A DNA stretch of 64,000 nt from Knoellia sp. Soil729. Lineage in GTDB: Bacteria; Actinomycetota; Actinomycetes; Actinomycetales; Dermatophilaceae. The stretch lies in the NCBI RefSeq assembly GCF_001427985.1, contig NZ_LMSA01000002.1, forward strand, positions 977,175-1,041,174, given 5' to 3'. Each line of letters starts with the position of its first letter. Position 1 is the stretch's first letter. A program made the position numbers and the translations under genes. Positions 1 to 64,000 of the stretch are shown piece after piece. The notes under the pieces are model-generated. The model saw only the letters and a program-made list of their open reading frames with translations. It searched no databases and was not told the origin of the DNA.

Positions 1-643
1 GAGGACGTGGCGGCGCTTCTCCTCCGCTGTGAGGGCGACGTGGGCTCCGATGACGTCCTTGACCGGGCCCAGGATCGACAACCACGCCATCCCATCCGCA
101 GCCGGCCGCACACTCATCCGCCGACTTGCCACCGCCCGCCGGTTGCGCTCCGCCAGGCTCTCCGCATCCAGTGCAGCACCCGCACGCCGTGCCGCGCCCG
201 CCAACGCCTTGTCACCCATCATCGCCAGCTTCGACGCCAACCGCTGGTCGACCTCACCGCGGTGCTCGCGGCTCAGGCACGCGGTCTCGCGCACCAGGAT
301 CATCGCCCGACGCTCACTGATCTCCCCACGCGTGAGCGCGCCCATCGTCTGCGGCATCTCCGACACCAGCGTCTTCGCCACCCCCACGTGCTGGTCGGCC
401 ACCGTCGGGGGCGCGCACGCTGCGCGAGTCCTCCCCCAAAGCCTTACGGTCCACCACCGCAGCCGCCGTCAACCGGGCCTGCGCAGCCGCAGCAGCACCC
501 TTGAGTGCTTCCAACGCCGAGACCGCCTCCAAGCGCTGCCGCTCGTCCACGCCCTCGGGTTCCACCGACGCCAACCACGACACCAAGGAGGCCACCTGCG
601 CTGCAGGTACCCCGTCCCGGATCGCGATCTCGTCCATACCCAT
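1..643 (-). pseudogene. DUF222 / 13E12-family HNH endonuclease, 5' part, frameshifted, runs off window
   Basis: Read on the minus strand from position 643, the frame begins MGMDEIAIRDGVPAAQ and continues with the N-terminal helices typical of DUF222 proteins (ERQRLEAVSALEALKGAAA). Between about 430 and 400 the frame is lost. It resumes in another frame as HVGVAKTLVSEMPQTM, then RAMILVRETACLS and SVRPAADGMAWLSILG, running to the window edge, as in DUF222 proteins. The stretch that normally links these halves (the ARRESP region) is missing, so a short deletion plus frameshift is likely. The C-terminal HNH domain would lie outside the window. These genes are multicopy in Intrasporangiaceae and their role is uncertain. 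I cannot exclude a sequencing error, but lost residues plus a neighbouring partial duplicate favour decay. Confidence 0.75.
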
Positions 644-675
644 CAACCTATCGGCGACCACTGACAACGAGCCGC
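588..675 (-). repeat. Direct repeat copy 1 (5' end of the DUF222 gene)
   Basis: This 88-bp stretch contains the start region of the decayed DUF222 gene. It matches 757-844 with about six mismatches and no gaps, at an offset of 169 bp. The match covers the start codon, the first codons and about 30 bp upstream. Confidence 0.85.
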
Positions 676-756
676 TGCAGCAAGCCGAACCAGTTGGGGC
701 ACAGGGCATGTAGCGGCGAAAGGGCGCTACGGGCGTGTGTGGAGCACGAGCCCGCC

Positions 757-844
757 GAGGCCGCCTGCGCTGCAGGTACCCCATCCCGGATCGGCATCTC
801 GTCCATACCCATCAACCTATCGGCGACCACTGACAACGAACCGC
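757..844 (-). repeat. Direct repeat copy 2: orphan 5' fragment of a second DUF222 gene
   Basis: The minus strand from 812 reads MGMDEMPIRDGVPAAQAAS, nearly the same as the start of the decayed gene at 643. It then diverges and leads into the upstream flank of the first copy. It is a remnant: either a tandem duplication that was mostly deleted, or recombination between two DUF222 paralogues. Confidence 0.75.
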
Positions 845-1230: not shown

Positions 1231-2331
1231 ATGAGGCGTTCCGGCCACGTCCTTCGACTCGTCACAACCCTGGCGCTCGGATCGCTGCTCTCCGGGATCG
1301 TCCCGCAGGCTGCCGTGGCCACCCCCTCCACACTCTCCGGAAGGGGCGCGCCCGAGGTGGTCCAGCTCGGCGACTCCTACTCCGCCGGCAACGGCACGGG
1401 CTCCTACATCGAGAAGAGCTGCTGGCGCTCGACCGTGAACTATGGGCAACAGGTCGCGACAGCCCTCGGGGCGAGCTATGCCAACGCCGCCTGCAGCGGC
1501 GGAGTCGTGGCCGACATCCTCAACGCGCGCGCCCTGGGCGACCCCTCACCCCGCGCCAAGACCTACGTCATCGACCCGGCCGCGTACCCCGACCCCTGGG
1601 CTGAGTGGGAGCGGCGCGCCACGGCCGACCACCTCTGCGGAGTGCCGAACCAGCCCGACATGTACTACGCACTCACCGTGACCGGCAAGGTTGCGGTGGG
1701 CACGGCATACACCGCGACAGCGCAGTGCCAGCTCATGACCGAGCCGCAGGTCGACTCGGTCAGTCCGTCCACGGACTACGTCTTCCTCACCATCGGCGGG
1801 AACGACCTCGGCTTCTCCAGCATCGTCGTGCAGTGCATGGTGCTCAGGGATCCGGCCGGGTGCAGGTCCGTCCTCGACGCGGCCACGGCCAAGCTCCCGG
1901 AGATGCGCGCCCGGGCAGCGGAGGCGCTCGTGGCGATCCACGACCGGTCGCGAGGTCACGCACAGGTCTACCTGCTGACCTATCCGTTCCTGCTCAACAC
2001 CGACAGCTACGGGATCCCCGAGGCCGCGCCGACGTTCGACGCAGCCCGTGGCCTGCGAGACCTGCAGGTGGCCGGCGATGCCACGCAGGCCGCCATCGTC
2101 GCCGACGCCAACGCCAGGACGCCGGGCAGCGACTTCCACCTCGTCGACACCGTCAAGGCGGCATGGGGCGGCCACGCGCACGGCCTCGACCCCCACACCG
2201 TCCCGGACAACAGCCAGGCGTGGCTCGTGCCCGTCGCAGCGCCGGGGCGCGAGCAGCCCGAGTGGGTCCACCCCACCCCGTCGGGCTGGAACGCGACAGC
2301 GGGAGCCCTCCGGGCAGCCGTGGCGAACTGA
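1231..2331 (+). CDS. Secreted SGNH-family esterase/lipase
   Basis: This encodes a 366-residue exported serine esterase. The first 30 residues are a signal peptide (basic start, hydrophobic run, cleavage near AVATP). SGNH block I is VQLGDSYSAGNG with nucleophile Ser49. Block III, with the oxyanion Asn, is GGNDLGF near residue 190. Block V, with the catalytic Asp/His region, is EWVHPTPSGWN near residue 347. Several cysteines in the mature part suggest disulfides, as in the Streptomyces scabies esterase type of actinobacterial SGNH hydrolases. The ATG at 1231 follows a good ribosome binding site; in-frame starts further upstream have no signal peptide and are rejected. The natural substrate is unknown; acyl esters or lipids outside the cell are likely. 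Confidence 0.88.
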   Translation: MRRSGHVLRLVTTLALGSLLSGIVPQAAVATPSTLSGRGAPEVVQLGDSYSAGNGTGSYIEKSCWRSTVNYGQQVATALGASYANAACSGGVVADILNARALGDPSPRAKTYVIDPAAYPDPWAEWERRATADHLCGVPNQPDMYYALTVTGKVAVGTAYTATAQCQLMTEPQVDSVSPSTDYVFLTIGGNDLGFSSIVVQCMVLRDPAGCRSVLDAATAKLPEMRARAAEALVAIHDRSRGHAQVYLLTYPFLLNTDSYGIPEAAPTFDAARGLRDLQVAGDATQAAIVADANARTPGSDFHLVDTVKAAWGGHAHGLDPHTVPDNSQAWLVPVAAPGREQPEWVHPTPSGWNATAGALRAAVAN

Positions 2332-3640: not shown

Positions 3641-4824
3641 TGGACACCACCTTCGACGCCCCCGTCGTCGCGTTCCATGGTCCCGACGTCGTGGAGCAGC
3701 CGCTGGTCGTGCTGCTCCACGGCCGCGGGTCGGACGAGCGCGAGATCCTCTCACTCGCACCGCACCTCCCCCAGGGCGCGACGTACGCGGCCGTCCGTGC
3801 CCCGATCGCCGAGGGCGGTGGCTACGCGTGGTTCGCCAACCGCGGCATCGGCCGCCCGGTCGCCGAGTCGCTCGCCGCCACCATGGCGTGGTTCCGCACC
3901 TGGCTCGACGACGTCGCCCCTGCGGGTCGCCCCGTCGTCCTCATCGGCTTCAGCGGCGGGGCCGCCTTCGCCGGCGGTCTCGTCCTCTCGGACCCTGCTC
4001 GGTATGCCGGTGCCGCGATTCTCTACGGCACGCTCCCCTTTGATGCCGGTGTCCCGACCACGCCCTCGCGCTTGGCGCTCGTCCCGATGTTCGTCGCCCA
4101 AGGTGACAGTGACAGGGTCATCCCGGCCGAGCTGCTCCAGGGCACCTGGACCTACCTCCACCACGTCTCGGGCGCACCGACTCAAGGACACCGTGACCCG
4201 GGCGGGCACGGCATCACGCAGGCCGCGCTCCAGCAGCTCGTCGGCTGGCTGCACGCGCGCCTCACCTACGTCCTCACCCACGAGGCAGTGACGCCGCCCG
4301 ACACCAGCACCAGCACCGGAACCGGCGTCGACTGGCCCACCCTTCCCGGCGGCCACCTCGAGGACCGCACCGGCGAACGCCCGCAGGTGTCATGGCGCAT
4401 CCCGCAGCAGCAGGAGTCCGACAACTCGCCCGCCGACATCCAGGAGCAGCTCTTCGCGCGCATCTCGACCCTGCCCAACGTCTCCAGCGGGGACTCGCAG
4501 ATCTCGGTCCCCGGTGCCCGCGGCCTGGTCCTCGGGAAGTCGGCCGGCCCGGACGAGGCGTTCCTCGTCCCGCAGGTGCGCGAGTTCGCCCACCTCCACC
4601 CCGCCTACGACGGCTCCCTGCACCTTGCCCTGCCAGCAGCCCACGCGGCCGACGTCGTCGCGCACGGCTGGGGCACGCCCCACCCGTGGGCCGGCAGCCG
4701 CCTCAGCCTCGGCTTCACGATGGTCTTCGGGCCTCGCGATGCCGCTGAGCTCGAGGTCGTCGCGGGGGTCGTGGCTGCGAGCCACGCCTACGCGTCAGGA
4801 GCGGGCGTCAGCGCGGCGCTGTGA
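3640..4824 (+). CDS. Fusion: carboxylesterase/phospholipase domain plus luciferase-like DUF5519 domain
   Basis: This is a 394-residue two-domain protein. Residues 1-215 form an alpha/beta hydrolase of the phospholipase/carboxylesterase (MhqD) type, with LLHGRGSDE near the N-terminus. The nucleophile is Ser105 in GFSGG (usually GFSQGG), the acid is Asp158 in GDSDRVIP, and His190 lies in GGHGIT. After a Pro/Thr-rich linker (about 216-235), residues 240-394 match the DUF5519 'luciferase' domain (VSWRIPQQQ, ARGLVLG, EFAHLHPAYDGSLH). Its ATG overlaps the stop of the VOC gene. The 3' end overlaps the convergent antiporter gene by 30 bp. The hydrolase probably cleaves an ester product of the upstream dioxygenase; the role of the second domain is unknown. 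Confidence 0.82.
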   Translation: MDTTFDAPVVAFHGPDVVEQPLVVLLHGRGSDEREILSLAPHLPQGATYAAVRAPIAEGGGYAWFANRGIGRPVAESLAATMAWFRTWLDDVAPAGRPVVLIGFSGGAAFAGGLVLSDPARYAGAAILYGTLPFDAGVPTTPSRLALVPMFVAQGDSDRVIPAELLQGTWTYLHHVSGAPTQGHRDPGGHGITQAALQQLVGWLHARLTYVLTHEAVTPPDTSTSTGTGVDWPTLPGGHLEDRTGERPQVSWRIPQQQESDNSPADIQEQLFARISTLPNVSSGDSQISVPGARGLVLGKSAGPDEAFLVPQVREFAHLHPAYDGSLHLALPAAHAADVVAHGWGTPHPWAGSRLSLGFTMVFGPRDAAELEVVAGVVAASHAYASGAGVSAAL

Positions 4825-6138
4825 CTGCTCGCCGCGCTCCTGCCAAGCCATGGCAAAGGGCGCGGTGAAGCCATGGAGGTAGACCGACACGACCACGGTG
4901 AAGGCGATGATCGACCACAGCCACCGCAGCTCCGGCAGGTCGGCGTGCGTGCCGGCATACGCCAGGTAGAACAGTGAGCCGACTCCTCGCACGCCGTAGA
5001 ACGCCGCGACGACGCGCTCCCGCTTGTCGAAACCGTGGACGCCTCGCTGGCGACGGTGCCCGAGGAAGGACACCATCCCCGCGAGGGGACGGATGACGAG
5101 CAGGAGCGCGAGCGACAGCGCGACCCCCTGCCAGTCGAGGTTGGCGAGGAGACCGTTGGTCAGTGCCATCCCGAGCAGGAGGAGGACGACGAGGGTCAGC
5201 AACCGCTCGAGCCGCTCGATCACCTCGTGCATGTCGTGGTGGTAGGACTGCGTGCGCTCGAAGCTGCGCACCGTCATGGCGCAGGTGAACACCGACAGGA
5301 AGCCGTAGCCGCCCACCACCTCGGCCACGCCGTAGGCCGCGAGCAGGGCGGCGATCGCGACGAGGGGTTCACCGGTCGTCGCGAACCGCACCTGCTCCGA
5401 ACGGACGCTGAACGCCAGCTTGGCGACGGCCCAGCCCACGGCGATGCCGACCGCGACCCCGAGGACGACCTTGCCGACGACGTCCCACGCGGCCCACTGC
5501 ACGCCCCACTGCGAGAACCCACCCACGGTCGCGAGCAGGATCGCGGCGTGGACGAAGGGGAAGGCCAAGCCGTCGTTGAGGCCCGCCTCGCTCGTGAGGG
5601 CGAACCGGACCTCGTCGGTCTCGTCGATCGAGACCTCCTCCTCGCCCTCGTCGGCCAGGTCGTCCTCGTCGAGGGCGTCGTTGGGGCCGCCGACCTGCAC
5701 GTCGGAGGCGAGCACCGGATCCGTGGGCGCGAGCGCCGCTCCCAGCAGCAACGCCGCTGGCGCCGCCACCCCGAAGGCTCCCCACGCGAGCAGCCCGACC
5801 CCGGCGATGCACAGCGGCATCGCGACGCCGAGCAGCCGCCACGTCGGCGACCAGCTGCGCCACGAACCCCGGTCGCGCAGGCTCAACGGACGGTCGAGCG
5901 CGAGCCCGACACCCATGAGCGAGACGAGGACGGTGAACTCGGTGATGTGCAGGACGGCCTCACCGTGCCCGACGGGGTCCAGGTCGAGGTCACGGAAGCC
6001 CGGCATCAGCCCGAGGAGCAGGCCGAGCGTGACGAGGATGATGGGGGCGTTGATGCGGCACCGGTCGAGCACCGGTGGGAGGACGACGGCGAGGAAGAGC
6101 GCCAGCCCGAGGGCGACATAGATCCAGGCAGCCGTCAC
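4795..6138 (-). CDS. Na+(K+)/H+ antiporter, CPA1 (NhaP-type) family
   Basis: This 447-residue integral membrane protein has about 12 hydrophobic segments. Family marks are ALAPTDPVLASDVQVG and the ion-site motif EAGLNDGLAFPF, carrying the Asn-Asp pair of CPA1 antiporters. Between them is a strongly acidic loop (LDEDDLADEGEEEVSIDE), which may bind cations. It exchanges monovalent cations for protons across the cytoplasmic membrane. The GTG start at 6138 shares GTGA with the stop of the upstream DinB gene, so it is co-translated. A start further upstream would run through that gene and is rejected. The C-terminus is short and lacks a TrkA-type regulatory domain. Confidence 0.88.
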   Translation of the reverse strand: MTAAWIYVALGLALFLAVVLPPVLDRCRINAPIILVTLGLLLGLMPGFRDLDLDPVGHGEAVLHITEFTVLVSLMGVGLALDRPLSLRDRGSWRSWSPTWRLLGVAMPLCIAGVGLLAWGAFGVAAPAALLLGAALAPTDPVLASDVQVGGPNDALDEDDLADEGEEEVSIDETDEVRFALTSEAGLNDGLAFPFVHAAILLATVGGFSQWGVQWAAWDVVGKVVLGVAVGIAVGWAVAKLAFSVRSEQVRFATTGEPLVAIAALLAAYGVAEVVGGYGFLSVFTCAMTVRSFERTQSYHHDMHEVIERLERLLTLVVLLLLGMALTNGLLANLDWQGVALSLALLLVIRPLAGMVSFLGHRRQRGVHGFDKRERVVAAFYGVRGVGSLFYLAYAGTHADLPELRWLWSIIAFTVVVSVYLHGFTAPFAMAWQERGEQSQRRADARS

Positions 6139-6656
6139 GCGCGGACGTCCCACAGGTGGTGCGCGAGGTCGTGCAGGCCGTAGCGGCCCAGGGTGAGCAC
6201 GGTGAACTCGGCACCGTTGGACCGCAGGCCGCGACGCTCCCAGTCGGAGCCGGACACACCGGCATACGCCGCACTGAGACGGGCCGCAGCGACCGGGATC
6301 TCGGAGGCGACGACGGACGGTGACTGCGCGGCATACCGGCTCTCGACGGCCGTGGCGTCCTGGTCCCAGTTCGCGAAGCGCGCACCGTCCTCGTCGAGCA
6401 TGAGCTGCAGACGGTCGGCAAAGAGGTCGCACACGTCACGGACGTGGCAGGCGTACTCGAGCGGGGACCAGGTCGCCGGGTCGGGTCGCGTCGCCGTCTC
6501 CGGTCGGGCGAGCACGTCCGTCCACGGCGTGGTGTATGCCGTGACAAGACTCGCGATGTCGGCTCCCTCGACCGCTCGGGCGTCGAACCCGCAGTCGGGA
6601 CAGGTCCGCTCGAGGGTCCAGGTCCAGTCCTTGTCATCGGGGACGATCTCGCTCAT
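6135..6656 (-). CDS. DinB-family protein (four-helix putative metal-dependent protein)
   Basis: This 173-residue protein fits the DinB/YfiT-like four-helix superfamily. It has WSPLEYACHVRDVC with the first metal His, and GRYGLHDLAHHLWDV near the C-terminus with the following His residues. An N-terminal CPDCGFDARAV segment resembles a small zinc knuckle, seen in actinobacterial members. Members act as thiol (mycothiol/bacillithiol)-dependent transferases or have unknown roles. The ATG at 6656 is preferred over a GTG at 6662; neither has a strong ribosome binding site. It overlaps the antiporter gene by 4 bp. Confidence 0.75.
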   Translation of the reverse strand: MSEIVPDDKDWTWTLERTCPDCGFDARAVEGADIASLVTAYTTPWTDVLARPETATRPDPATWSPLEYACHVRDVCDLFADRLQLMLDEDGARFANWDQDATAVESRYAAQSPSVVASEIPVAAARLSAAYAGVSGSDWERRGLRSNGAEFTVLTLGRYGLHDLAHHLWDVRA

Positions 6657-9840: not shown

Positions 9841-10871
9841 GGGTCCACTGTGGCACCAAGACGGTCTCGCACGGCGGCATACACCGTCTCGTCGTGGATC
9901 AGCGCGAGGTGACTGACTCCGGGAAGGACGACGACGTCCTCGCGCGCGAACCGCCGGCTCTCGGGTGAGTGACGCCCCGATCCGCGGGCACTTGCTGCGG
10001 TCACCATGCCGTCACCGAAGAGCTGGGCCACCTTGCCGTCGATCTTCTTGCCGAGCAGACCGACGACGGCGAGATGGCGTATGCCGGGGTGCAGGGGGAT
10101 GTCGAGACGGTGAGTCCGGTGGTCCGTCGGGTCCGCGTCACCCCACTCCTCCTCGACGAGGTTGCCGTGCCGCAGGTCCTGGATCCCGACGCTGCGGATG
10201 CCGAGCGCTCGGGCCACGGGCCGGATGCGGTGCAGGGCGCCGGCGGCCCGGGCGACGTGGTTGACGCCACGTTCCAGGGGAGCGCCGAGGTGGGGCGAGC
10301 CGAGGGTGACGGTGTCGCTCACCAGACCCACCCAGCTGGCGTCGACCTCGGCCTGGGCCAGCGCGCTGTGGATGACGAGCCCGCCCATGGAATGGCCGAT
10401 GAGCACGAGGCGCCGGAGGGGCACCGGCCAGTGCGCGACGAGGTCGATGAGGACGTGGTTGAGGTCATGCCCGTTGTGGGAGATCCGCAGGCCGGTGTTG
10501 TAGCGCACGGTGACGGGGGTGAGGCCCAGGTCGTCGCGAAGGCCCTTGCCGAAGCCACCTGGCTGCCAGGCGGTCTCGGTGAACAGCAGACCGTGCACGA
10601 ACACGGCCACGTCGCTGGTGGCGTCCGGGAACGCGTCCGCCAGCCCGCTCTCGGTGAGTGGAACGGTCCGGCCGCGCCGGCGCACGCCCATGGTGTGCGA
10701 CAGGGCTGAGCCCGACGCATCGAGCCGATCACCGACGAAGGCGTTGACGAAGGCGCGCACCGCGTTGGGGGCCGGGTGGTGGATGAGCTCATCACTGACC
10801 CCGGCGACTCGGTGCACGCCGCGCATGAGCACCTGCTCGACGGCGGTCGGCTCCTGCGGCTCCTCGCTCAT
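9837..10871 (-). CDS. Alpha/beta hydrolase, lipase/PGAP1-like
   Basis: This is a 344-residue alpha/beta hydrolase without a signal peptide. It has the oxyanion region VAVFVHGLLFTETAW and the nucleophile elbow VLIGHSMGGLVIHSAL (GHSMG). DTVTLGSPHLGAPLERG is typical of PGAP1-like and triacylglycerol lipases. A C-terminal LPGVSHLALIHDETVY carries the catalytic His. It probably hydrolyses a lipid ester in the cytoplasm. It overlaps efeB upstream and zwf downstream by 4 bp each, so it sits in one long minus-strand transcription unit with the efe genes. Its link to iron uptake is not evident. Confidence 0.8.
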   Translation of the reverse strand: MSEEPQEPTAVEQVLMRGVHRVAGVSDELIHHPAPNAVRAFVNAFVGDRLDASGSALSHTMGVRRRGRTVPLTESGLADAFPDATSDVAVFVHGLLFTETAWQPGGFGKGLRDDLGLTPVTVRYNTGLRISHNGHDLNHVLIDLVAHWPVPLRRLVLIGHSMGGLVIHSALAQAEVDASWVGLVSDTVTLGSPHLGAPLERGVNHVARAAGALHRIRPVARALGIRSVGIQDLRHGNLVEEEWGDADPTDHRTHRLDIPLHPGIRHLAVVGLLGKKIDGKVAQLFGDGMVTAASARGSGRHSPESRRFAREDVVVLPGVSHLALIHDETVYAAVRDRLGATVDP

Positions 10872-12172
10872 GCCCCGAAGAGTTGCACACCCCAGTCCTG
10901 CCCGTCGCCCAGTCCGGGCGGGCAGGCGAAAAGGGCCGAGCCGTTGTGCTCGATGTACTCGTTGAGCTTGTCGGACTTCGCGAGCGCCTGCTGCATCGGC
11001 ACGAACTGCTTGTGGGCGTCGCGCACGAACGCGAGAAAGAACAGCCCGGCATCCAGGTGCCCACTGCCGTCCGTGCCGTCGGTGAAGTTGTAGCCGCGTC
11101 GCAGGATCCGTATGCCGCCCAGCTGGCTCTCGTGGGCGAGGCGGACGTGGCTCGTGAGCGGGATCCGGGGCGAGCCGTCCGCGCCCTTCGCGTGGAAGTC
11201 CAGGGGGGCGAACTCGTCGCGTTGGTCGACCGGCTGGGAGAGCGGCGCCCCGACGGCCTTGTCGCGCCCGAAGATGTCCTCCTGCTCCTGCAGCGACGTC
11301 CGGTCCCAGACCTCGATGTGCATCCGGATGCGCCGAGCCACGAGGTAGGAGCCGCCGGCCATCCAGGAGGCGCCACCCGGCACGTCGGAGGGGTCGACCC
11401 AGACGTGGGAGTCGAGGGCCTGGCCGTCCTCGGCCTTGATGTTGGCCGTGCCGTCCTTGAAGCCGAAGAGGTTGCGCGCGGTCACCTGGCTCGTCGACGT
11501 CGAGGAGGTGCGGCCGAAGCCGAGCTGGCTCCAGCGCACCGAGATGACGCCGAAGCCGATGCGGATGAGGTTGCGGATGGCGTGCACGGCCACCTGGGGG
11601 TCGTCCGCGCAGGCCTGGATGCAGAGGTCGCCACCCGTACGGGCAGGGTCCAGGTCGTCGCCCCGGAACCCGGGCAGGTCGTGCAGCGCCTCCGGCTTGC
11701 GCCCGGCCAGGCCGAAGCGGCCGTCGAAGAGCGAAGGGCCGTAGCCGATGGTGATCGTGAGGTTGGACGGAGCGAGGTCGAGGGCCTCGCCGGTGTCCTC
11801 CGGCGGCCGGTAGGGCCCGCCACCGACGACGCCGCCCGGCGACGCCTCGGCGCCGAAGGTCATGCGCTCAGCCGCCCGGGTCCACTCCTGGAGGAGGAGC
11901 TTGAGGTCGGCCGCATCCTTGCTGATGACGTCGAGGGCGACGAAGTGCATGCGGTCCTGCGCAGGCGTGACGATGCCGGCCTGGTGCTCGCCGCGGAAGG
12001 GCACCGGCTTCTGCGAGGACGGCGGTGCAGCCGGCCCTGTCGGCTGGGAAGCCGCAGCGCGAGGGGTGCCGCCGGCATACGTCAGGCCCGCGGCAGCGCC
12101 GGCCATGGCGACACCGGCTCCGGTGGCAAGGACGCTGCGCCGGGTGGCTGCCGGCTCGTTCGGGGCGCTCAT
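10868..12172 (-). CDS. efeB: Iron uptake deferrochelatase/Dyp-type peroxidase EfeB
   Basis: This is a 434-residue Dyp-type haem peroxidase with a twin-arginine signal (Arg11-Arg12 in TRRSVLATGAG, then a hydrophobic alanine-rich stretch), so it is exported folded. The GxxDG motif appears as FGFKDGTANIK near residue 236, where the Asp acts in peroxide activation. The C-terminal part (LGGIRILRRGYNFTDG, GLFFLAFVRDAHKQF) matches EfeB. In EfeUOB systems it oxidises or releases iron outside the membrane. It overlaps efeO by ATGA. GGIR is encoded with the rare ATA codon to make the octamer CGGCATAC. Confidence 0.92.
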   Translation of the reverse strand: MSAPNEPAATRRSVLATGAGVAMAGAAAGLTYAGGTPRAAASQPTGPAAPPSSQKPVPFRGEHQAGIVTPAQDRMHFVALDVISKDAADLKLLLQEWTRAAERMTFGAEASPGGVVGGGPYRPPEDTGEALDLAPSNLTITIGYGPSLFDGRFGLAGRKPEALHDLPGFRGDDLDPARTGGDLCIQACADDPQVAVHAIRNLIRIGFGVISVRWSQLGFGRTSSTSTSQVTARNLFGFKDGTANIKAEDGQALDSHVWVDPSDVPGGASWMAGGSYLVARRIRMHIEVWDRTSLQEQEDIFGRDKAVGAPLSQPVDQRDEFAPLDFHAKGADGSPRIPLTSHVRLAHESQLGGIRILRRGYNFTDGTDGSGHLDAGLFFLAFVRDAHKQFVPMQQALAKSDKLNEYIEHNGSALFACPPGLGDGQDWGVQLFGA

Positions 12173-13308: not shown

Positions 13309-14171
13309 GCGGCTTCTCCTGAGTGGGACGGGGCGAGCGAGGTGGGCTGGGGGGCGGTCGGCCTGGAAGTCTTTGCCGGGCGAAGGAAGAGCGTGAGGAC
13401 GACGGCGACATAGGCCGTCCAGGCGACCGCCTGGAGCAAGGTCGTCACCGGGGTGAAGTTGAAGATGCCCTTGAGCAGGGCGGCATACCAGCTGTCCGGA
13501 CGGATGACGTTGGACACGTCGAAGGCGACGGTCTGCAGGCCGGGGAGGAAGCCCGCCTCCTGCAGGTCGTGGAGGCCGTAGGCGAGGATGCCGGCGGCCA
13601 CGAGGATGAGCGCGATCCCGGTCCACTTGAAGAACGAGCCGAGGTTGATCTTCACGGCGCCTCGGTAGATGAGCCAGCCGAGGGCGATCGCGCCGCCCAG
13701 GCCGAGAAGCCAGCCGAACAGCGGGGAGCTGTTGCCCTGGCCGGCCGCCTCGGTCGTGGCATAGAAGAAGATCGCGGTCTCGAGGCCCTCGCGCCCCACG
13801 CCGAGGAAGCCCACGAGGGCGACCGCGAGTGGGCCCAGGTCGAGGGCGTGGTCGAGGCGCCCCTTGAGCTCGCCGGAGATCGTGCGGGCGGCCGTCTTCA
13901 TCCAGAAGACCATCGCGGTGACGAAGGCCACGGCGAGGATGCTCGCGCTCCCGCCGATGAGCTCCTGGGTCTCGAACGAGAGCTGACGCGTGCCGAAGGT
14001 CAGCGCGGCCGCCAGTCCGGCGCTCAGCACGACGGCGGTGATGACGCCGACCCAGACGTGGCGCAGGGCCCACCGTCGATCCGTCTTCACGAGGAATGCG
14101 ACGAGGATGACGACCACGAGGGCGGCTTCGAGACCTTCGCGAAGGCCGATGAGGGCGTTGCTGACGAGCAT
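13305..14171 (-). CDS. efeU: High-affinity iron permease EfeU (FTR1 family)
   Basis: This 288-residue membrane protein has about seven helices and the two REGLE iron-translocation motifs of FTR1/EfeU permeases: LREGLEAALVV at residues 10-20 and GREGLETAIFFY near residue 127. It is the first gene of efeU-efeO-efeB, all linked by ATGA overlaps. A DtxR/IdeR-type box lies 28 bp upstream, so the operon should be repressed when iron is plentiful. Length is close to the bacterial family norm. Confidence 0.93.
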   Translation of the reverse strand: MLVSNALIGLREGLEAALVVVILVAFLVKTDRRWALRHVWVGVITAVVLSAGLAAALTFGTRQLSFETQELIGGSASILAVAFVTAMVFWMKTAARTISGELKGRLDHALDLGPLAVALVGFLGVGREGLETAIFFYATTEAAGQGNSSPLFGWLLGLGGAIALGWLIYRGAVKINLGSFFKWTGIALILVAAGILAYGLHDLQEAGFLPGLQTVAFDVSNVIRPDSWYAALLKGIFNFTPVTTLLQAVAWTAYVAVVLTLFLRPAKTSRPTAPQPTSLAPSHSGEAA

Positions 14172-17624: not shown

Positions 17625-17711
17625 CCTGCCACCTCCGTCCCTTCGCGCAGGACGACAACGGTATGCCGTGGGGCCGACATTCCTTGCCGCTCATCCACAG
17701 GCCAGCGTGCG

Positions 17712-51738: not shown

Positions 51739-53652
51739 TCAGGCCACGGCGCGCAGGAACGCTTCGAGCAGCGGGCCCGCAGTGGCCGCTCCGCCCGTGC
51801 CCTCGTCCACGAAGACCGCGACGGCGAGGTCGCCCTGGATGGCGATCATCCAGGCATGCTCCTTTAGAGCATCGGCGTCGCCGAACTCGGCGGTGCCCGT
51901 CTTGGCCACGACCGGTGCACCGGGCACGTCAAGGAGGAACGTCGCACTGCCCTGCTCGACGACACCACGCATGAGGGTCCGGATCTGCGCAGCCTCAGCA
52001 GCGGTGACGGGCTTCTCGGGAGCCTGGGGTCCGGGTGTCTTGGTGTCGACGACGAGGGTCGGCGCCACGGGCTTACCCGCAGCGATCGACGCGGCGACGG
52101 TGGCCATGCCCAGCGGTGAGGCAAGGACCTTGGCCTGGCCGATCATCGACGCAGCCTCCTCGGTGCCCGGCTTCGGCTCGGGGACCGACCCGAGGAAGGC
52201 AGGCACGCCCAGAGCGGCCTGGGCGGTGAGCCCCAGAGCCGCTGCGGCAGCCGGCAACGCGGCCGGGGCGAGCTCCTCGCCTGCCCGGATGAAGGCGGTG
52301 TTGCACGACTGCGCGAAGGCCGAGCTGAACGGCACCGACCCCAGCGCCGAGGCCGGGAAGCCGTCGACGTTCTTGAACGAGCGCCCGTCGACGGTCACGG
52401 TGGGCGAGCACTCGACCGTGGAGGTCGGCGTCAGACCGGATCGCAGCAGGGCGAGGCCCGACACGGTCTTGAAGGTCGAACCCGGCGCATAGCGGCTCTG
52501 CGTCGCGGTTGAGGTGCCCTTGCCGCCCGGGCCGCTGGCCGCGGCGAGGATGTGCCCCGTCGACGGCTGGACGGCGACGATGGCCGAGGCCGGGTCCACG
52601 TCGGCCAGGACGGTTTCGGCCTTCTCCTGCGTCGCGATGTCGAGAGTGAGGGTGACGGGGGTGCCCGGCATGGCCTCGGTGGTGAAGAGGGTGCGCTCCT
52701 GGGCTCCGCCCTTCGCGACCACGGCATACCCGGGCTCGCCCGCGAGCTGGTCGTTGAACGCGGACTGCACGCCCCCGATGCCGACCGTGTCACCGGCGAG
52801 CACCTTGCCGTCGGACTTCTCCACGATCTCGGCCGTCGCGTCACCGACGACGCCGAGTATCGGGCGGGCGAAGCTCGGCGTGGGAGCGAGCATGCGCTTC
52901 TCCGGCACGAGGAAGACCCCTGGCTCGTCGACGGCGAACGCGGCATCGGCCTGGTCGCTGTCCACCCGGACCGTGATCGCCTCGACGAAGGCGCGCGGAC
53001 CAGCCTTCTGCACCGCGCTGACGAAGGTGTCGATGTCGATGTCCATCGCCGTGGCCAGCGCGCGGGCGGATGACACGGCGACCGCTCCGCTCGCCTTGGT
53101 CTTGTCGATCCCCACCCGATAGACGTCGCGCGGCTCGACGATCGCCTTGCCGCCGGCGCCGAGGATCGGAGCCCGGTCCGGCTGCTGGCGCTTGATGCTC
53201 ATGACCTCGTCGACGACCAGGTCGGGAGCGACGACCGCTGGGTCCCACTCACCCCGCCACCGGTCATCGCCCCGACGGACCTCGAGGGACGTCTCGTAGG
53301 TCCACGGAGTCGGCGACCCCGGCAGGGACCACGAGTGCCTCAGCGTCGCCACGGCGAGGCCGTCCTTGGGCTCCGTCATGGACGCGACGGTGACGTCGTG
53401 CCTGGCCTTGCCCATCCCCTTGACAACGGGCGCCAGGTCGGGGGTCGTGCCGGAGTCGTCGTCCACGATGGAGCCGGGCGCGTACTGGCCCTTCGTGAGC
53501 CCCGTGGCCACGAGCTGGGCGGCGCTGTGTGCGGCCGTGGCCTGACGGTCGGGCCACCACGTCAACCCGGCCCAGACACCGACCGCCAGAAGTGCCGCCA
53601 CGACCACGGCGATCCCGGCCTTGAGTCCCCGCCTCCGCGAACGCACCTGCAC
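51739..53652 (-). CDS. Penicillin-binding protein (class B transpeptidase with NTF2-like MecA-N domain)
   Basis: This is a 637-residue protein with one N-terminal membrane anchor (AGIAVVVAALLAVGVWAGL). An NTF2-like domain (about 40-150) follows, then a dimerisation domain and the penicilloyl serine transpeptidase. Active motifs are SxxK in PGSTFKTVSG near 392, SxN in QSCNTAF near 447, and KTG in VAKTGTAEFG near 582. It crosslinks peptidoglycan outside the membrane. The MecA-N domain is found in resistance-type and actinobacterial class B proteins. The GTG at 53652 directly precedes the anchor. Confidence 0.9.
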   Translation of the reverse strand: MQVRSRRRGLKAGIAVVVAALLAVGVWAGLTWWPDRQATAAHSAAQLVATGLTKGQYAPGSIVDDDSGTTPDLAPVVKGMGKARHDVTVASMTEPKDGLAVATLRHSWSLPGSPTPWTYETSLEVRRGDDRWRGEWDPAVVAPDLVVDEVMSIKRQQPDRAPILGAGGKAIVEPRDVYRVGIDKTKASGAVAVSSARALATAMDIDIDTFVSAVQKAGPRAFVEAITVRVDSDQADAAFAVDEPGVFLVPEKRMLAPTPSFARPILGVVGDATAEIVEKSDGKVLAGDTVGIGGVQSAFNDQLAGEPGYAVVAKGGAQERTLFTTEAMPGTPVTLTLDIATQEKAETVLADVDPASAIVAVQPSTGHILAAASGPGGKGTSTATQSRYAPGSTFKTVSGLALLRSGLTPTSTVECSPTVTVDGRSFKNVDGFPASALGSVPFSSAFAQSCNTAFIRAGEELAPAALPAAAAALGLTAQAALGVPAFLGSVPEPKPGTEEAASMIGQAKVLASPLGMATVAASIAAGKPVAPTLVVDTKTPGPQAPEKPVTAAEAAQIRTLMRGVVEQGSATFLLDVPGAPVVAKTGTAEFGDADALKEHAWMIAIQGDLAVAVFVDEGTGGAATAGPLLEAFLRAVA

Positions 53653-53694: not shown

Positions 53695-54129
53695 TCATCC
53701 TCGTCGCCGAGCCACCTGGCCGACGAAGAGGCAGAAGGGGTGGCCGGCGGGGTCGGCGAGCACATAGAGCGGTTCCTCTGGGTCGTCGGTGCGGTCGAGC
53801 CGGAGCTCGGCACCGAGCCGCAGGGCCGTGTCCTTGTGCCGTTCGAGGGCATCGAGGTCCTCGACCACGTAGTCGATGTGGGCCTGCTGAGGAACCTCGT
53901 CCTGCGGCCACGTCGTGCGCGCCAGCCGCGGGACCTGCTGGAACGCGAGCTGCCGCGTGCCGTCCGGCCGGGTGAGGACCAGCCAGTCGACCGTGTCCGG
54001 GCTGCCGTCCGTCGAGGGCTCGTCACCGGGCCGGTAGACCAGCCCCAGGAGCCGCCGGTAGAACTCGGCCAGCTCGCGGGGTCGCTCGCAGTCCAGAACC
54101 GTCTGCACGTATGCCGGGTGCTCGCCCAT
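53695..54129 (-). CDS. VOC-family protein
   Basis: This 144-residue protein starts YVQTVLDCERPRELAEFYRR, then IDYVVEDLDALERHKDTAL and VLADPAGHPFCLFVG, typical of actinobacterial glyoxalase-like domains. The first His of the metal triad is replaced (QTVLD), so it may bind ligands rather than catalyse. It is upstream of the penicillin-binding protein gene in the same orientation with a 42-bp gap. Confidence 0.82.
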   Translation of the reverse strand: MGEHPAYVQTVLDCERPRELAEFYRRLLGLVYRPGDEPSTDGSPDTVDWLVLTRPDGTRQLAFQQVPRLARTTWPQDEVPQQAHIDYVVEDLDALERHKDTALRLGAELRLDRTDDPEEPLYVLADPAGHPFCLFVGQVARRRG

Positions 54130-57270: not shown

Positions 57271-60200
57271 ATGCCAGGACCCATGCCCTCGAGCTCCCAA
57301 AGTACCGCCGGGGACACACCCGCCGAGGCCGATTGGGAAGGTCCCGCCGCCTCCCTGCTGCCCTATGCCCCCCGCCTCGCCGGCGAGTGGCTGAGAACGT
57401 CACCGGACGAGCGGCACCGGGCGATCGAGGCCACCGCGATGTTCGCCGACATCTCCGGCTTCACGGCGCTCACCGAGCGGCTCGCCCGGCTCGGTGCCGT
57501 CGGGGCGGAGCAGATGAGCGACACCCTCGACGCCACCTTCGGGAGGCTGCTGACCGTGGCGAGCGCGGACGGTGCGGACCTGCTCAAGTGGGGCGGGGAC
57601 GCCGTGGTCCTCCTCTTCCGCGGTGACGAGCACGCCGCCCGCGCGGCGCGGGCGGCCCATCGCATGCGCGCGAGCCTGCGCGACCTCGTGCGGCGCCACG
57701 CCCTGCCGGTGCGGGTGAACCTGCGGATGTCGATCGGGGTCCACACCGGGGTGTTCGACCTCTTCCTCGTCGGGGATCCCGCCAGCCACCGCGAGCTCCT
57801 GCTCGCCGGGCCGGCGGCCACCGTGCTCGTCGAGATGGAGAAGCTGTCGCAGGCCGGGCAGATCGGTCTCAGCGCGACGACCGTCGCCCTGCTCCCCCGG
57901 TCCAGCCGGGGTGCCGAGCTCGTGGGCGCCTCCACCGCCGGTGCTCGGCTGCTGTCGGGCAGTCCCGTCATCCGCCGGTGGCGGGACAGTGAGTCGCAGT
58001 CCCTCGCGGAAGACGTGACCCCCTGCATCCCCCCGATGATCCGACGGCACCTCGTGCAGGCCCAGGGAGAGTCGGAGCACCGCTCCGTCGCCGTGGCCTT
58101 CGTCGAGTTCTCCGGCACCGACGTGCTGCTGGGCGAGGAAGGGCAGGCCGATGCCGTGGCCGACGCCCTCGACGACGTGGTCCGCAACGTGCAGCAGGCC
58201 TGCCTGGACCACGGCGTGACCTTCTTCGAGTCCGACCTCTCCCACGACGGCGGCAAGATCATGCTGACCGCCGGCGCCCCCACCAGCAGTGGGGAGGACA
58301 GTGAGCGCCTCCTGCGCACCGCGCGCGACATCGTCGACCGGGCCGGGGTGCTGTCGGTGCGCGTCGGGGTGAACCGCGGGTCGGTCTTCGCCGGCGATTT
58401 CGGCCCGAGCTTCCGCCGGACCTACTCGGTCAAGGGCGACGCGGTGAACCTCGCGGCGCGGATCATGGCGCGTGCCGCACCGGGCGAGGTGCTGGCCAGC
58501 GACGAGGTCGTGTCGCGCTCGTACACCCATGTGCGCACGGAGCGACTCGAGCCGTTTCTCGTCAAGGGCAAGTCGCGGCCCGTGCAGGCTCAACGCGTCC
58601 TCGGGCTGGTGGAGGGGCGCTCCGCGGCTCGCGCCGTCACGCCGTTCTTCGGTCGCGAGCTCGAGCTGCTGCTCCTGCGTGCACCGGTCCTGCGCACCCT
58701 GCAACGCACCGGCTCGGTCGTCGACATCTCGGGGGAGCCCGGGATCGGCAAGTCCCGCCTCGTCGCCGAGCTGGCGCCGCTCCCGCCCGAGATCGCGGTC
58801 CTCGTCACCGCGTGCAGCAACTACGACGCCAGCGCCTCGTACTTCGCCTTCCGCACCGTGCTGCGCGACCTGCTCGGGATCAGTGCCACGGACGACGGTG
58901 CCGGCGTGATGCGTCGCCTCACGAGGCGGTTGCAGGACAATGCCGCTCACCTCCTGCCATGGCTGCCACTGCTCGCACCCCTGCTAGGGGTCGAGCTGCC
59001 ACCCTCCCGCGAGACGCAGGACCTCGACGAGCGGTTCCGACGCACCCGACTCGAGGAGGTGGCCCTGGAGCTGCTGGACGTCACGCTGCCCACCGCGACC
59101 CTCCTCGTCTTCGAGGACGCCCACCTCATCGACGAGGCGTCGGCCTCACTGCTGCAACGGCTCCTCGCGCGGGCCCACACCCGGCCGTGGTGCGTCGTCA
59201 TCACCCGCCGCGAATCCGAGCCGGGCGCCACCGCCACCTTCGTGCCCGACCCGGGCCTGCCCCGCGTCATCGAGATCCCGCTCGGCCCCCTGTCCGACGA
59301 GGCCGCCACCGACCTCATCGAGGCGGCCGCCGGCGACGCCCGCCTGGGAGTGCGCGACATCGAGGCCATGGCCGGTCGCGCCGCCGGCAACCCCCTGTTC
59401 CTCAGCTCCCTGGCCAGCGTTGCCCTGCTCGAGGGTGACTCCGGCAACCTGCCCGCGTCCGTCGAGGCGGTGTACGTGCGTGAGCTCGACCGGCTTCCCC
59501 CACGGGCACGCACGCTGCTGCGGTATGCCGCCGTGATCGGGATGCGCTTCGACCCGCACCTCCTCGCGTCGCTCGTCCCCGACGCCGACGGCGCTGTGCA
59601 CACCGACCTCGGCGAGGTGGCCGACTTCGTCGAGACCCTCGAGGACGGCACCGTGCAGTTCCGGCACTCACTGCTGCGCGACGTCGCCTACGACGGGCTG
59701 CCCTTCCGGCTCCGTCGCTCGATGCATGCCCGCGTCGCCCACCTGCTCGAAGGTGGAGACGAGGGCTCGGCCAACCCGGCGTCGCTGAGCCACCACTTCC
59801 ACGCGGCCGGACTCCATGCGCAGACCTGGACACACTCGCTCGTCGCGGGTGAGCAGGCCGCCGCTGCCTACGCCTACAGCGAGGCGGCGGCCTACTTCGG
59901 CCGGGCCCTGGACGCCGCAGGGCACCTGCCGGACGTGTCCCGGGAAGCCCGCACCGCGGCATACGTGCGTCTGGGTGAGGCACGGGACATGGCCGGGCAG
60001 TCCACGGCAGCCATCGCCGCGTTCCGCGACGCGCGCCACCTCCTTCCCGACGACCCCGTCGGCCGGGCCCGGCTCCTGTACCGCGAGGCCCGCATCGGGC
60101 TCCGACTCGGCAGATATCCACAGTCGCTGAGGGTGCTCACCCGCGCGCTGCGCATGCTCGACGGCTCGAAGGGACCGGAGGCGGAGGCGGTGCGCGCGGA

Positions 60201-61203: not shown

Positions 61204-62138
61204 ACGTCGCCCGCGCCGTCGCGCTGGCTGGCGCGGTAGTCGGTGCAGTACTCGAGGGTGCTGTCGATGACGCCCTTGCTGGCGCAGGGCGGCACCGCCA
61301 CCAGGGCGCCGACCGCACTGCGGGACCACAACGCGGTGAAGGAGGGGACGCCTGCCTTGCCGCACAGGCTCTTGTCACAGATGATCTCCATGCGGGCGGG
61401 GTTGCTGCGGTCATAGATGCGGGTGCCGGTGGCGTCGGTGAGGTTGGCGATCATCTGCGTGACGAGGGCGCCCTTGACGCAGCTCTCACCCGCCGGGCAG
61501 AGGCCCAGACTCAGGGCGACGTCGCTGGAGGCGCCCTTCGGCAGGACGACGATGCCGCACATCGGGTGGTCGCGGTCGACGACCGCGCAGCCGGCTCCGT
61601 CGGCACCTGCCGTGCCGTCGCGCAGCTTCTCGGACGCACCGGGCACGAAGCTCAGGACGCGGTTGACGTCGAAGGCGTTGCTGGTGCCGCTGACGGCCTT
61701 GTTGCCCTTGCCCGCTGACGCCTGGACCTTCACGCCCGTGGCTTCGGCGGAGTAGGAGACCGTGAACACCGTCGTCGTCGCGCCACCCGGGATCGTCCGC
61801 GTGGCCGAGGGGAGCGCGCCGGGGCCGCTCGCCGTCAGGGTCACGTCCTGGTCGTTCGGGAACGCCGCGTCCAGGGTCCCCGCCCTGAGGGTGACCGACA
61901 CGAGGAACGCGTCACCCTTGCCGGCGAGGACGGTCGGAATCGCGTCAGCCGGGGCACCGGCCAGGCTGGCGCCGATGACGGCCGGGTCGCTGTAGGCCTT
62001 GACCACCATGCTCGTGGGCGCCGGTAGCGAGGACGCGGATGCGGGACCGACCACCCCTTGGGCCAGGGCCACCACGAGGCCGAAGGTTGCGGCAAGCACG
62101 AGAGCCAGCCGTGAGCGGCGTGGGCGCGATGTGGACAC
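61158..62138 (-). CDS. Secreted protein of unknown function
   Basis: This is a 326-residue protein with a signal peptide (RRSRLALVLAATFGLVVALA, cleavage near ASA-SS at residue 38). It is cysteine-containing and beta-rich. The first part (residues 40-170) reads like an Ig-like domain (FLVSVTLRAGTLDAAFPNDQ, TTTVFTVSYSAEATGVKV). The second half has pairs of Cys (GCAVVDRDHPMCGIVVL, LCPAGESCVKGALV, CDKSLCGKAG). I know no family. The GTG at 62138 follows CCAGGAG. The 3' end overlaps the cyclase gene by 46 bp. Confidence 0.7.
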   Translation of the reverse strand: MSTSRPRRSRLALVLAATFGLVVALAQGVVGPASASSLPAPTSMVVKAYSDPAVIGASLAGAPADAIPTVLAGKGDAFLVSVTLRAGTLDAAFPNDQDVTLTASGPGALPSATRTIPGGATTTVFTVSYSAEATGVKVQASAGKGNKAVSGTSNAFDVNRVLSFVPGASEKLRDGTAGADGAGCAVVDRDHPMCGIVVLPKGASSDVALSLGLCPAGESCVKGALVTQMIANLTDATGTRIYDRSNPARMEIICDKSLCGKAGVPSFTALWSRSAVGALVAVPPCASKGVIDSTLEYCTDYRASQRDGAGDVHLVVWFLDDVRGSI

Positions 62139-62316
62139 GGGGTACTCCTGGGACGGTGGGCGGTGCGGCGACCCTCCACTGTCGCGCCGTCCCTGCGTGC
62201 GGGCATCCGTGTCCTCACTGAACTTCACCGTATGCCGGGTGCTCACCTGCCTGCCCTGCGCAAGATCCGTGAGATCACCGATGCCCTCGAGCAGGGCTGG
62301 CCCACAGGATCGGGAC

Positions 62317-64000
62317 ATGACCTCGACCCTCGACACCGGCGGGGGCCTGCGCGCTGCCACGCCTGCACCCGCCACCCCGCGCCGAGGGCGCGTTGCGCCA
62401 CGCACCGTCCTGCTCGTCGCGTCGTTCGGGGCCCTGCTCGCCTTCCTCGACGCGACGATCGTCAACGTCGCCTTCCCCAGCATCCGGGAGTCGTTCCCCG
62501 GCACGTCGATCGGGACCATCTCGTGGGTCCTCAACGCCTACAACATCGTGCTGGCCGCGTTCCTGATCGTGTGCGGTCGCCTCTGCGACCTGCTGGGCCG
62601 GCGCCGGCTCTACATCGCCGGGATCGCCCTCTTCACGCTGGCTTCGCTGTGGTGCGCGGCGGCGACGTCGATCGACGTCCTCGTCATCGCCCGCGTCTTC
62701 CAGGCGCTCGGGGCGGCGATGCTCATCCCGGCCTCGCTCGCGCTGGTCATCGAGGCCTTCCCCGGCGAGCACCGCGCCCACGCCGTCGGCTTGTGGGGCG
62801 CCGCCGCGGCCGTCGCGGCAGGGCTCGGACCGCCCATCGGCGGCGCGCTGGTCGAGGGCGGCGGGTGGAGGTGGGCCTTCCTCATCAACCTTCCCCTCGG
62901 CGCGGTGGCCCTCGTCCTCTCGCGCAAGGTCCTCGTCGAGAGCCGGGCCCCGGGTCGCCGCACCATGCCCGACCTCGTCGGCGCCCTGCTCCTCGCAGGA
63001 TCCCTCGGGCTCGGCACGACCGCCCTCATCAAGGCCAACGAGTGGGGCACGGACAGCCTCACCCTGTGGGCCGTGCTGGTCGGCTGCGTCGTCCTCGGCA
63101 CCGGGTTCGTCATGAGCTCACGCCGGCACCCGTCGCCGCTCATCGACGTCGAGCTGCTGCACAGCCGACCCTTCCTCGTCGCCAACATCGTCACCTTCAT
63201 CGCCGGCGCGGGCTTCTTCGCCTACCTGCTCACCAACATCCTGTGGCTGCAGTACGTCTGGCAGTACTCCGTGTTCATGGCCGGTGTGGCCACCGTGCCG
63301 GGGGCGCTCACCGCGGCTGTGGTGGCGGGAGCGCTCGGGCCGATCGCCGCGCGCCGGGGATATCGCGAGGTCGTCGTCGGGGGCGCGCTCGTGTGGGTCG
63401 GGGCGTTCGTCTGGTACGACCAGATGGTCGGGGTCGAGCCGAACTTCCTCACCCAGTGGCTCCCCGGACAGGTGCTCAGCGGCCTGGGGGTCGGGGCGAC
63501 CCTCCCGCTGCTCGGCAGCCTTGCCCTCGAGGCCGTGCCGGGTGGCCGCTCGGCCACTGCCTCGGCGATCATCTCCAGCGTCCGGCAGGTCGGTGGCGTC
63601 CTCGGCATCGCGATCCTCGTCATCATCCTGGGCACCCCGACGCCGCTCACCGTCGTGCGCGACATGCGCAACGGGTGGTTGTTCTGCATCATCTGCTTTG
63701 CGCTGTGTGCCGTGGCCGCACTGTTCCTCGGTCGAATCCGGGCCGCCGAGGGACCGACGCCCGCCGAGGTGGTGACCTCCCCCTCGCCGACGACAGCGGG
63801 CAGCGGGGACGCGGAGGGGGGCGGACGGCATACGGACGATGGCCTGGACGCGGGGCGGGCCAAGCCCGTGCGCGAGTCCCTCTTCTCGCAGCTGCCTGCC
63901 GAGACACAGGCGCGCATCGAGAGCTCGGCGCACCCCGCGACGGTGCGCGCGGGCTCATGGATCGTGCGTGAGGGCGAGGTCGCGACGACGCTGTTCGTGC
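62317..64000 (+). CDS. MFS transporter fused to a cyclic nucleotide-binding domain (partial)
   Basis: The visible part, 561 residues to the window edge, is a DHA2-like (EmrB/QacA) major facilitator with 12-14 helices. It has VASFGALLAFLDATIVNVAF, RLCDLLGRRRLYIAGIALF and AAAVAAGLGPPIGGALVEGG. After an acidic linker (about 490-520), the segment LFSQLPAETQARIESS and AGSWIVREGEVATTLFV starts a cNMP-binding domain. This order matches the Mycobacterium MFS-cNMP-patatin proteins (Rv3239c/Rv3728 type). The rest lies outside the window. The ATG at 62317 is the first good start. It may be gated by cAMP from the nearby cyclase. Confidence 0.85.
   Translation, partial: MTSTLDTGGGLRAATPAPATPRRGRVAPRTVLLVASFGALLAFLDATIVNVAFPSIRESFPGTSIGTISWVLNAYNIVLAAFLIVCGRLCDLLGRRRLYIAGIALFTLASLWCAAATSIDVLVIARVFQALGAAMLIPASLALVIEAFPGEHRAHAVGLWGAAAAVAAGLGPPIGGALVEGGGWRWAFLINLPLGAVALVLSRKVLVESRAPGRRTMPDLVGALLLAGSLGLGTTALIKANEWGTDSLTLWAVLVGCVVLGTGFVMSSRRHPSPLIDVELLHSRPFLVANIVTFIAGAGFFAYLLTNILWLQYVWQYSVFMAGVATVPGALTAAVVAGALGPIAARRGYREVVVGGALVWVGAFVWYDQMVGVEPNFLTQWLPGQVLSGLGVGATLPLLGSLALEAVPGGRSATASAIISSVRQVGGVLGIAILVIILGTPTPLTVVRDMRNGWLFCIICFALCAVAALFLGRIRAAEGPTPAEVVTSPSPTTAGSGDAEGGGRHTDDGLDAGRAKPVRESLFSQLPAETQARIESSAHPATVRAGSWIVREGEVATTLFV

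Follow-up and report, generated by a model that had tools for sequence, protein, structure and literature searches.

An abundant octamer with lineage dialects in one actinobacterial family is a candidate DNA uptake sequence

The 64,000-nucleotide stretch of Knoellia sp. Soil729 analysed here (contig NZ_LMSA01000002.1; hereafter the window) carries the octamer CGGCATAC so often that the question arises of what maintains it. The window was scanned for exact matches on both strands, and the count was compared with an order-3 Markov expectation. We found 49 copies, 26 on the forward and 23 on the reverse strand, against 2.1 expected, an excess of approximately 24-fold. The first-pass annotation, made by eye, had arrived at about 49 copies, the same strand split and a rough expectation of about two; its twenty-fold excess was, if anything, an understatement, and each of its 49 positions matched a true copy, with a worst offset of 10 bases (6339 given, 6329 true). 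It had offered uptake, recombination, methylation and nucleoid-protein binding as possible functions. Of these, uptake was favoured because of the dialects of the word, its lack of polarity, its density and a dialect-swapped block of DNA. We consider it reasonably likely, judging from genome comparisons, that CGGCATAC serves natural transformation as a DNA uptake (self-recognition) sequence, with a receptor linked to Tad pili or to ComEA.

Excess and extent of the octamer

The source genome of the window (G000, 3.6 Mb) contained 2138 copies of CGGCATAC (1083 and 1055 by strand, 593 per Mb), as compared with 89 copies of the reversed word serving as control. In a 464-kb sample, composed of the window and 20 stretches of the same genome, 265 copies were counted versus 3.4 expected from an order-3 Markov model built after masking the words, a 77-fold excess. 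The Markov-corrected count, on which the claim of over-representation had been staked beforehand, was far above expectation. A short exact word recurring about once per 1.7 kb throughout the genome, far above expectation, is what an uptake sequence should present.

The copies were spaced slightly more evenly than a Poisson process predicts (variance/mean 0.75 in 2-kb bins of the 464-kb sample), and in genome G003 the word lay on both strands in 20 of 20 stretches. The even spacing is in keeping with an uptake sequence, but both observations would also suit a chromosome-organising site, bound genome-wide by a nucleoid or segregation protein. However, there was no replication polarity in G003, with 47 forward and 58 reverse copies in ten stretches of positive skew and 69 and 77 in ten of negative skew, which argues against such a site, and Chi and FtsK-orienting polar sequences (KOPS) were disfavoured and rejected because of the same lack of polarity in these 20 stretches. 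A Chi-like recombination hotspot could in principle lack an orientation preference. Short words can be selected by recombination enzymes, and Chi differs between lineages; Chi is, however, active in a single orientation and favours one of the replication strands, whereas the strand ratio here was even in both skew classes, and the 77-fold excess over the masked background is far above the levels typical of Chi. We regard a Chi-like role as quite improbable. The two chromosome halves of G003 were unequal in content, with 92 words in ten stretches (L250-L259) and 159 in the remaining ten of L249-L268.

Genes were predicted by a simple, crude codon-position method, and synonymous codons were shuffled 60 times with amino acids and codon usage preserved. 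In the 464-kb sample, 196 words fell in predicted genes, against a mean of 12.7 and a maximum of 21 in the shuffles, which ruled out codon usage or amino-acid preference as the cause. The readings proposed in the first-pass annotation accounted for most of these words (86 TAT-GCC, 58 GCA-TAC and 19 GGC-ATA-C); the other 33 were in three further settings, so that all six combinations of frame and strand were represented. Its suggestion that the word bends codon choice towards rare codons was borne out, in that 19 of the 36 ATA codons and 86 of the 331 TAT codons of the sample sit within CGGCATAC.

Against the masked background, the full 8 bp were required. Beyond the word, GGCATAC occurred 10 times versus 8.1 expected and GCATAC 19 versus 25, while the sub-words CGGCATA (21 versus 12), GGCATA (57 versus 28) and CGGCAT (549 versus 340) were mildly raised, by at most about twofold. 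The earlier statement that C precedes every GGCATAC held for the window (49 of 49), and in the 464-kb sample C preceded 265 of 275. The unit of recognition spans all eight bases of CGGCATAC. In G000, the bases directly flanking the word were seldom T (2-3%), and A/T rose mildly beside it. The 24 one-off variants summed to 324 versus 225 expected, mainly through CGGCCTAC (57 observed, 23 expected), CGGCATCC (85, 47) and CGGCATAG (19, 5.6), and the eight transitions to about 97 versus 84. These neighbours bear on a mutation or mismatch-repair bias that would turn near-words into the word without any function. Such a DNA-level process would hit both strands and every frame, as observed, but it should deplete particular one-off neighbours, and the totals lay above expectation; we judge it very improbable.

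Conservation was examined in the zwf/efeB region at five word places, where orthologous DNA of the same genus was mostly 81-86% identical (76% in one piece). CGGCATAC was kept in 17 of 26 congener comparisons, versus 31% for other 8-mers and 37% for 8-mers with exactly three A/T; turnover of words was likewise visible between congeners. Because the genic excess persisted with amino acids and codon usage held, and because conservation exceeded that of other 8-mers, these results support selection or drive that acts at the level of the DNA word and not of the protein, as the first-pass annotation had thought probable.

Taxonomic range and dialects

The word was abundant in all eight other genomes of the genus (1971-3277 copies) and patchy elsewhere in the family, which we take to be the Dermatophilaceae of GTDB, with a top density of about 1360 per Mb (G122). 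In Humibacillus xanthopallidus, a 22-kb comEC locus had 13 copies. The 22 genomes counted from other families had 2-167 copies each. Of 394 genomes sampled across the class, 386 were from other families, and none of these exceeded about 51 per Mb, by reading of the table. Unrelated actinobacteria, in which an equal count had been proposed beforehand as the decisive comparison, showed no such count. The excess of CGGCATAC is confined to one family. G434 of family f45 had 170 copies versus 27 of the control, the other listed genomes of f45 having at most about 60; it is possibly a weak case of the word outside the family.

For 32 genomes of the family, words were counted de novo in samples of 15-62 kb per genome, and the dialect words were drawn from these counts. 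Sixteen of the sampled genomes were rich in CGGCATAC alone, and in 11 of them it was the top-ranking word. Of the remaining five, two had a top word overlapping it, G013 had it third and G034 fourth, and in G025 (16 kb sampled) it was not among the five words listed, despite that genome being rich in it. Elsewhere the top word was CGGCATTC (G020), CGGCATCC (G024 and G033) or CCGCATAC (G027). Together with CGGCGTAC, five dialects were recognised, which have C1, G3, C4, T6 and C8 fixed. The five words were then counted in 119 family genomes of 53 genera, using cut-offs per Mb chosen after the counts were seen (CGGCATCC 500, CGGCATAC 200, CGGCATTC 200, CCGCATAC 150, CGGCGTAC 300); G113, G131 and G132, with intermediate counts, were scored as none. 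A word was carried by 80 genomes, 75 of them with only one (CGGCATAC 56, CGGCGTAC 10, CGGCATCC 5, CCGCATAC 4) and 5 with two, and by none of the other 39. At least one genome was positive in 38 of the 53 genera, and in 24 of the 31 genera represented by two or more genomes all members agreed, 9 of these genera lacking a word throughout. The five words form lineage dialects with a common core, as expected of uptake sequences, on these post-hoc cut-offs; CCCCCTTCG, a word of genus g59, stands outside the core. Synonymous shuffling gave a genic excess for each dialect: CGGCATCC 111 versus 19.9 (G130) and 34 versus 7.3 (G033), CGGCATTC 23 versus 1.5 (G020), CCGCATAC 8 versus 0.8 (G027), and CGGCGTAC 29 versus 8.5 (G077).

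Mixed genomes were found, namely G073 with 2195 CGGCATCC and 1217 CGGCATAC, and G020 with 3135 CGGCATTC and 1025 CGGCATAC; they look transitional. Genus g25 was split, with 3681 copies of CGGCATAC in G123 and 1062 in G032, while G097 had 19 CGGCATAC but 1463 CGGCGTAC, and genus g65 contained both full and mixed dialect states. On a tree of 28 ComEC proteins the CGGCATAC label took 6 changes, at least 5 of which were forced by well-supported branches, and it was weakly clustered (49 of 500 shuffles were as low). Repeated switching and loss of dialects within the family fits these data best. Dialect change and loss within a genus, and the 39 genomes below every cut-off, are ill-suited to an essential structural site such as a chromosome-organising one.

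CGGCGTAC was at first viewed as mere codon bias, since a Kribbella locus outside the family has it together with CGA, CGT and CGC variants; this was dropped when the family counts singled out ten genomes above 300 per Mb. The Kribbella locus itself had 16 copies versus 2.7 by synonymous shuffle, and the signal there is perhaps another frequent word. In L108 (Kribbella, another order), CGGCGTAC, CGACGTAC and CGTCGTAC were several-fold raised, as they were in a pooled Nocardioidaceae/Propionibacteriaceae set that includes L108.

One genome carried a block in a different dialect, met by chance rather than by a systematic scan. G130 had 4480 CGGCATCC versus 361 CGGCATAC overall, and six of its stretches had 17-37 CGGCATCC and 0-7 CGGCATAC, whereas its first 20 kb had 2 CGGCATCC and 13 CGGCATAC. 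The change-over lay near 18.5-18.8 kb from the contig start (L241 1-18800), delimiting a block of about 18.5 kb, in which the ten proteins scanned were of cobalamin synthesis, cobalt transport and associated families. The plainest reading is that this block may be DNA from a relative of the CGGCATAC dialect; alternatively, an older dialect could have been retained there. In Neisseria, foreign-dialect islands have been read as DNA from sources of other dialects (PMC7371117). The persistence of a foreign-dialect block also argues against a chromosome-organising site, which we consider improbable on balance.

Uptake and competing explanations

G000 encodes ComEC and a ComEA with HHH (HHH_3) and SLBB domains. 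Its Tad locus comprises T2SSE (the Tad ATPase), two T2SSF proteins (TadB/C-type) and three TadE/Tad-like proteins. The type IVa pilin domain PF07963 gave no match in G000, ComP itself not having been searched for, and a type IVa pilus or Neisserial ComP-type route was set aside for this genome. PF07963 was found in 12 of the 58 genomes searched and in only 2 of the 36 of the family (G013 and G032, both word-bearing). Because G000 lacks a type IVa pilin match, the uptake route is probably Tad pili together with ComEA and ComEC. In such a system external DNA would first be captured at its word by a surface or membrane DNA-binding protein, with a TadE-type Tad/Flp pseudopilin and ComEA as candidates. 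The Tad/Flp pilus would pull the bound DNA inward, ComEC would let a single strand through into the cell, and homologous recombination would copy it into the chromosome. If the bacteria are competent and such a receptor prefers the word, word-bearing fragments would be taken up more often, and by this drive the word would spread and persist; a shift in receptor specificity would slowly rewrite the genome in a new dialect.

Several observations weigh against an uptake function. Presence of ComEC or TadE (each in 57 of 58 genomes) cannot explain word presence or dialect, because both are equally common in word-negative genomes. No receptor gene emerged: in the comEC neighbourhoods of 13 named loci, with word status judged from 11-22 kb each, no cluster shared by at least four was private to word-positive loci. 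Literature searches returned no transformation data for these genera. The surplus of words wholly or partly outside predicted genes (69 of 265 versus 40 by area in the 464-kb sample) in itself favours uptake, but it hinges on the crude gene finder. Depletion in acquired DNA was weak, in that mobile genes occurred in just 2 of the 13 word-free gaps inspected out of the 16 longest (the 8 longest in the G000 sample less one, and the 8 longest in the G003 sample less two). These two, L256 and L259 of G003, had genes for an integrase or a serine recombinase, and in L256 IS110 and rve transposases lay close by. One G000 gap was a ribosomal RNA operon free of words, a point in favour of uptake. In the other ten, no scanned protein came from a mobile gene (L223 had one predicted gene only), and the contents were mostly transport, catabolic, repair or surface-polysaccharide genes. 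An early view of word-poor regions as mobile islands was dropped, since most inspected gaps hold ordinary genes; long word-free gaps of this kind are neutral for a chromosome-organising site. Finally, the unrelated 9-mer CCCCCTTCG was frequent in genus g59 without the common core, whereas known dialects of the DNA uptake sequence (DUS) share a core.

CCCCCTTCG occurred 28 times in 30 kb of G067 (L231 and L319, both strands), 6 times in 10 kb of G103 (L316) and 3 times in 10 kb of G128 (L317), and was also raised in G066 of genus g58 (L230; 7 in 20 kb), as compared with G003 and G000, where its first 8 bases recurred at 0.2-0.35 per 20 kb. All four genomes, of two genera, were without any of the five dialect words. 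The step to CCCCCTTCG is wider than those within known sets of dialects, and it recalls the alternative words of cyanobacteria with matching predicted methyltransferases. This resemblance favours the main rival of uptake, in which the word would be the target of a DNA methyltransferase, either orphan or linked to defence, methylation would favour the word and the dialects would track the enzyme's target domain. A stands opposite T6 in all five dialects, as a methylation mark could use. On the other hand, the word is not palindromic and needs its full length, while known non-palindromic methyltransferase sites are mostly shorter. A literature search directed at methyltransferases found nothing related. 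The frequency of the highly iterated palindrome HIP1 of cyanobacteria has been discussed in connection with methyltransferases, and other frequent cyanobacterial words have matching predicted enzymes (PMC4390886). Weighing both sides, we think a methylation mark unlikely, and still the strongest competitor of an uptake sequence.

HIP1 was the likeness drawn in the first-pass annotation. It is apt as to abundance, HIP1 being a frequent octamer (about 500-2500 per Mb) for which certain relatives have variants or other words, but not as to form: HIP1 is palindromic, contains methyltransferase sites and is linked with enzymes that methylate palindromic sites (PMC4390886), whereas CGGCATAC / GTATGCCG is asymmetric, and a HIP1-type palindrome was rejected. 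According to one account, Neisseriaceae and Pasteurellaceae are the only families from which uptake sequences have been reported (PMC12616744). The Neisserial DUS, at roughly one per 400-1100 bp (PMC7371117), resembles CGGCATAC in being an exact short word of similar density on both strands, with lineage dialects, mixed genomes and foreign-dialect blocks (PMC3630211, PMC7371117); it differs in its unrelated sequence and its length of 10-12 bp rather than 8 bp, whereas the present, putative system is actinobacterial, and G000 gave no sign, by type IVa pilin match, of the Neisserial ComP-type receptor. The uptake signal sequences of Pasteurellaceae share genome-wide enrichment, two subtypes with a common core and an excess outside genes (PMC12616744, PMC2346458), but they are another word in another phylum, with fixed AT tracts in place of a mild A/T rise. 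The actinobacterium Micrococcus luteus transforms via Flp/Tad pili and, like G000, has Tad/Flp and comEA/comEC genes; unlike here, no self word is mentioned in the account at hand (PMC6370729). Among the open-access papers listed by the literature searches, none, judged by titles and abstract openings, described an uptake sequence or CGGCATAC in actinobacteria or Gram-positives. That this is the first uptake-sequence system in a Gram-positive phylum, with self-recognition through Tad pili, at least five dialects plus the unrelated CCCCCTTCG, and a receptor specificity that shifted repeatedly within one family, we hold to be nearly an even call.

If CGGCATAC is an uptake sequence, it would add a third group with self tags, in actinobacteria with a different pilus, and would show that such tags need neither an outer membrane nor type IVa pilins to evolve. 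The several natural dialect switches, some within a genus, could then be used for finding the receptor and for testing selection against uptake-driven drive, and the word would hint at how to transform environmental actinobacteria and at which relatives exchange genes. Were it linked to methylation or to the nucleoid instead, it would still be a very strong and unexplained genome-wide word, one that changes from lineage to lineage.

Copies in the window and other repeats

Table 1. Copies of the octamer in the window, with congener conservation for the zwf/efeB region
Feature	Coordinates	Strand	Match	Remarks
word copy CGGCATAC	1703..1710	+	exact	
word copy CGGCATAC	4002..4009	-	exact	
word copy CGGCATAC	4953..4960	+	exact	
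word copy CGGCATAC	6260..6267	+	exact	
word copy CGGCATAC	6329..6336	+	exact	
word copy CGGCATAC	6534..6541	-	exact	
word copy CGGCATAC	9875..9882	+	exact	kept in 3/7 aligned congeners
word copy CGGCATAC	10079..10086	-	exact	kept in 5/7 aligned congeners
word copy CGGCATAC	11110..11117	-	exact	kept in 3/4 aligned congeners
word copy CGGCATAC	12073..12080	+	exact	outside predicted genes; kept in 4/4 aligned congeners
word copy CGGCATAC	13481..13488	+	exact	kept in 2/4 aligned congeners
word copy CGGCATAC	16140..16147	-	exact	
word copy CGGCATAC	17661..17668	-	exact	outside predicted genes
word copy CGGCATAC	18485..18492	+	exact	
word copy CGGCATAC	19929..19936	-	exact	
word copy CGGCATAC	20061..20068	+	exact	outside predicted genes
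word copy CGGCATAC	20983..20990	-	exact	
word copy CGGCATAC	21225..21232	+	exact	outside predicted genes
word copy CGGCATAC	21917..21924	+	exact	
word copy CGGCATAC	22637..22644	-	exact	
word copy CGGCATAC	24320..24327	+	exact	
word copy CGGCATAC	24684..24691	-	exact	outside predicted genes
word copy CGGCATAC	26041..26048	-	exact	
word copy CGGCATAC	27578..27585	+	exact	
word copy CGGCATAC	27647..27654	+	exact	
word copy CGGCATAC	28185..28192	-	exact	
word copy CGGCATAC	31547..31554	+	exact	outside predicted genes
word copy CGGCATAC	32108..32115	-	exact	
word copy CGGCATAC	32573..32580	-	exact	
word copy CGGCATAC	32673..32680	+	exact	
word copy CGGCATAC	34612..34619	+	exact	
word copy CGGCATAC	35352..35359	-	exact	
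word copy CGGCATAC	36087..36094	+	exact	
word copy CGGCATAC	38886..38893	+	exact	outside predicted genes
word copy CGGCATAC	39363..39370	-	exact	
word copy CGGCATAC	40894..40901	-	exact	
word copy CGGCATAC	42101..42108	+	exact	
word copy CGGCATAC	42372..42379	-	exact	
word copy CGGCATAC	44171..44178	-	exact	
word copy CGGCATAC	45665..45672	+	exact	
word copy CGGCATAC	47272..47279	-	exact	
word copy CGGCATAC	47313..47320	+	exact	
word copy CGGCATAC	49521..49528	+	exact	
word copy CGGCATAC	52722..52729	+	exact	
word copy CGGCATAC	54109..54116	-	exact	
word copy CGGCATAC	59523..59530	-	exact	
word copy CGGCATAC	59957..59964	+	exact	
word copy CGGCATAC	62230..62237	-	exact	outside predicted genes
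word copy CGGCATAC	63826..63833	+	exact	

Other repeated sequences were noted in the genomes compared. In several genomes, whether or not they carry CGGCATAC, the count of CCTGCTCG was 4-6 times that expected from a Markov model (G016, L175 and L176; G074, L234 and L235; L095), an excess that could be codon-driven. A tandem repeat consisted of 27 copies of CAGTTCGA at an exact spacing of 24 bases (L191 5013-5637, G030), and repeats mostly about 48-51 bases apart, possibly within a coding region, were found at L233 5910-6798 (G070). In G013, short repeats around AAACCTAGGGA, both direct and inverted, were located at L205 9092-9235 and L206 12337-12401. The palindrome TCTGCTAGCAGA occurred in G015 (L207 8369-10434) as two pairs with 60 bases between the members of each pair, and these palindromes are possibly operator sites.

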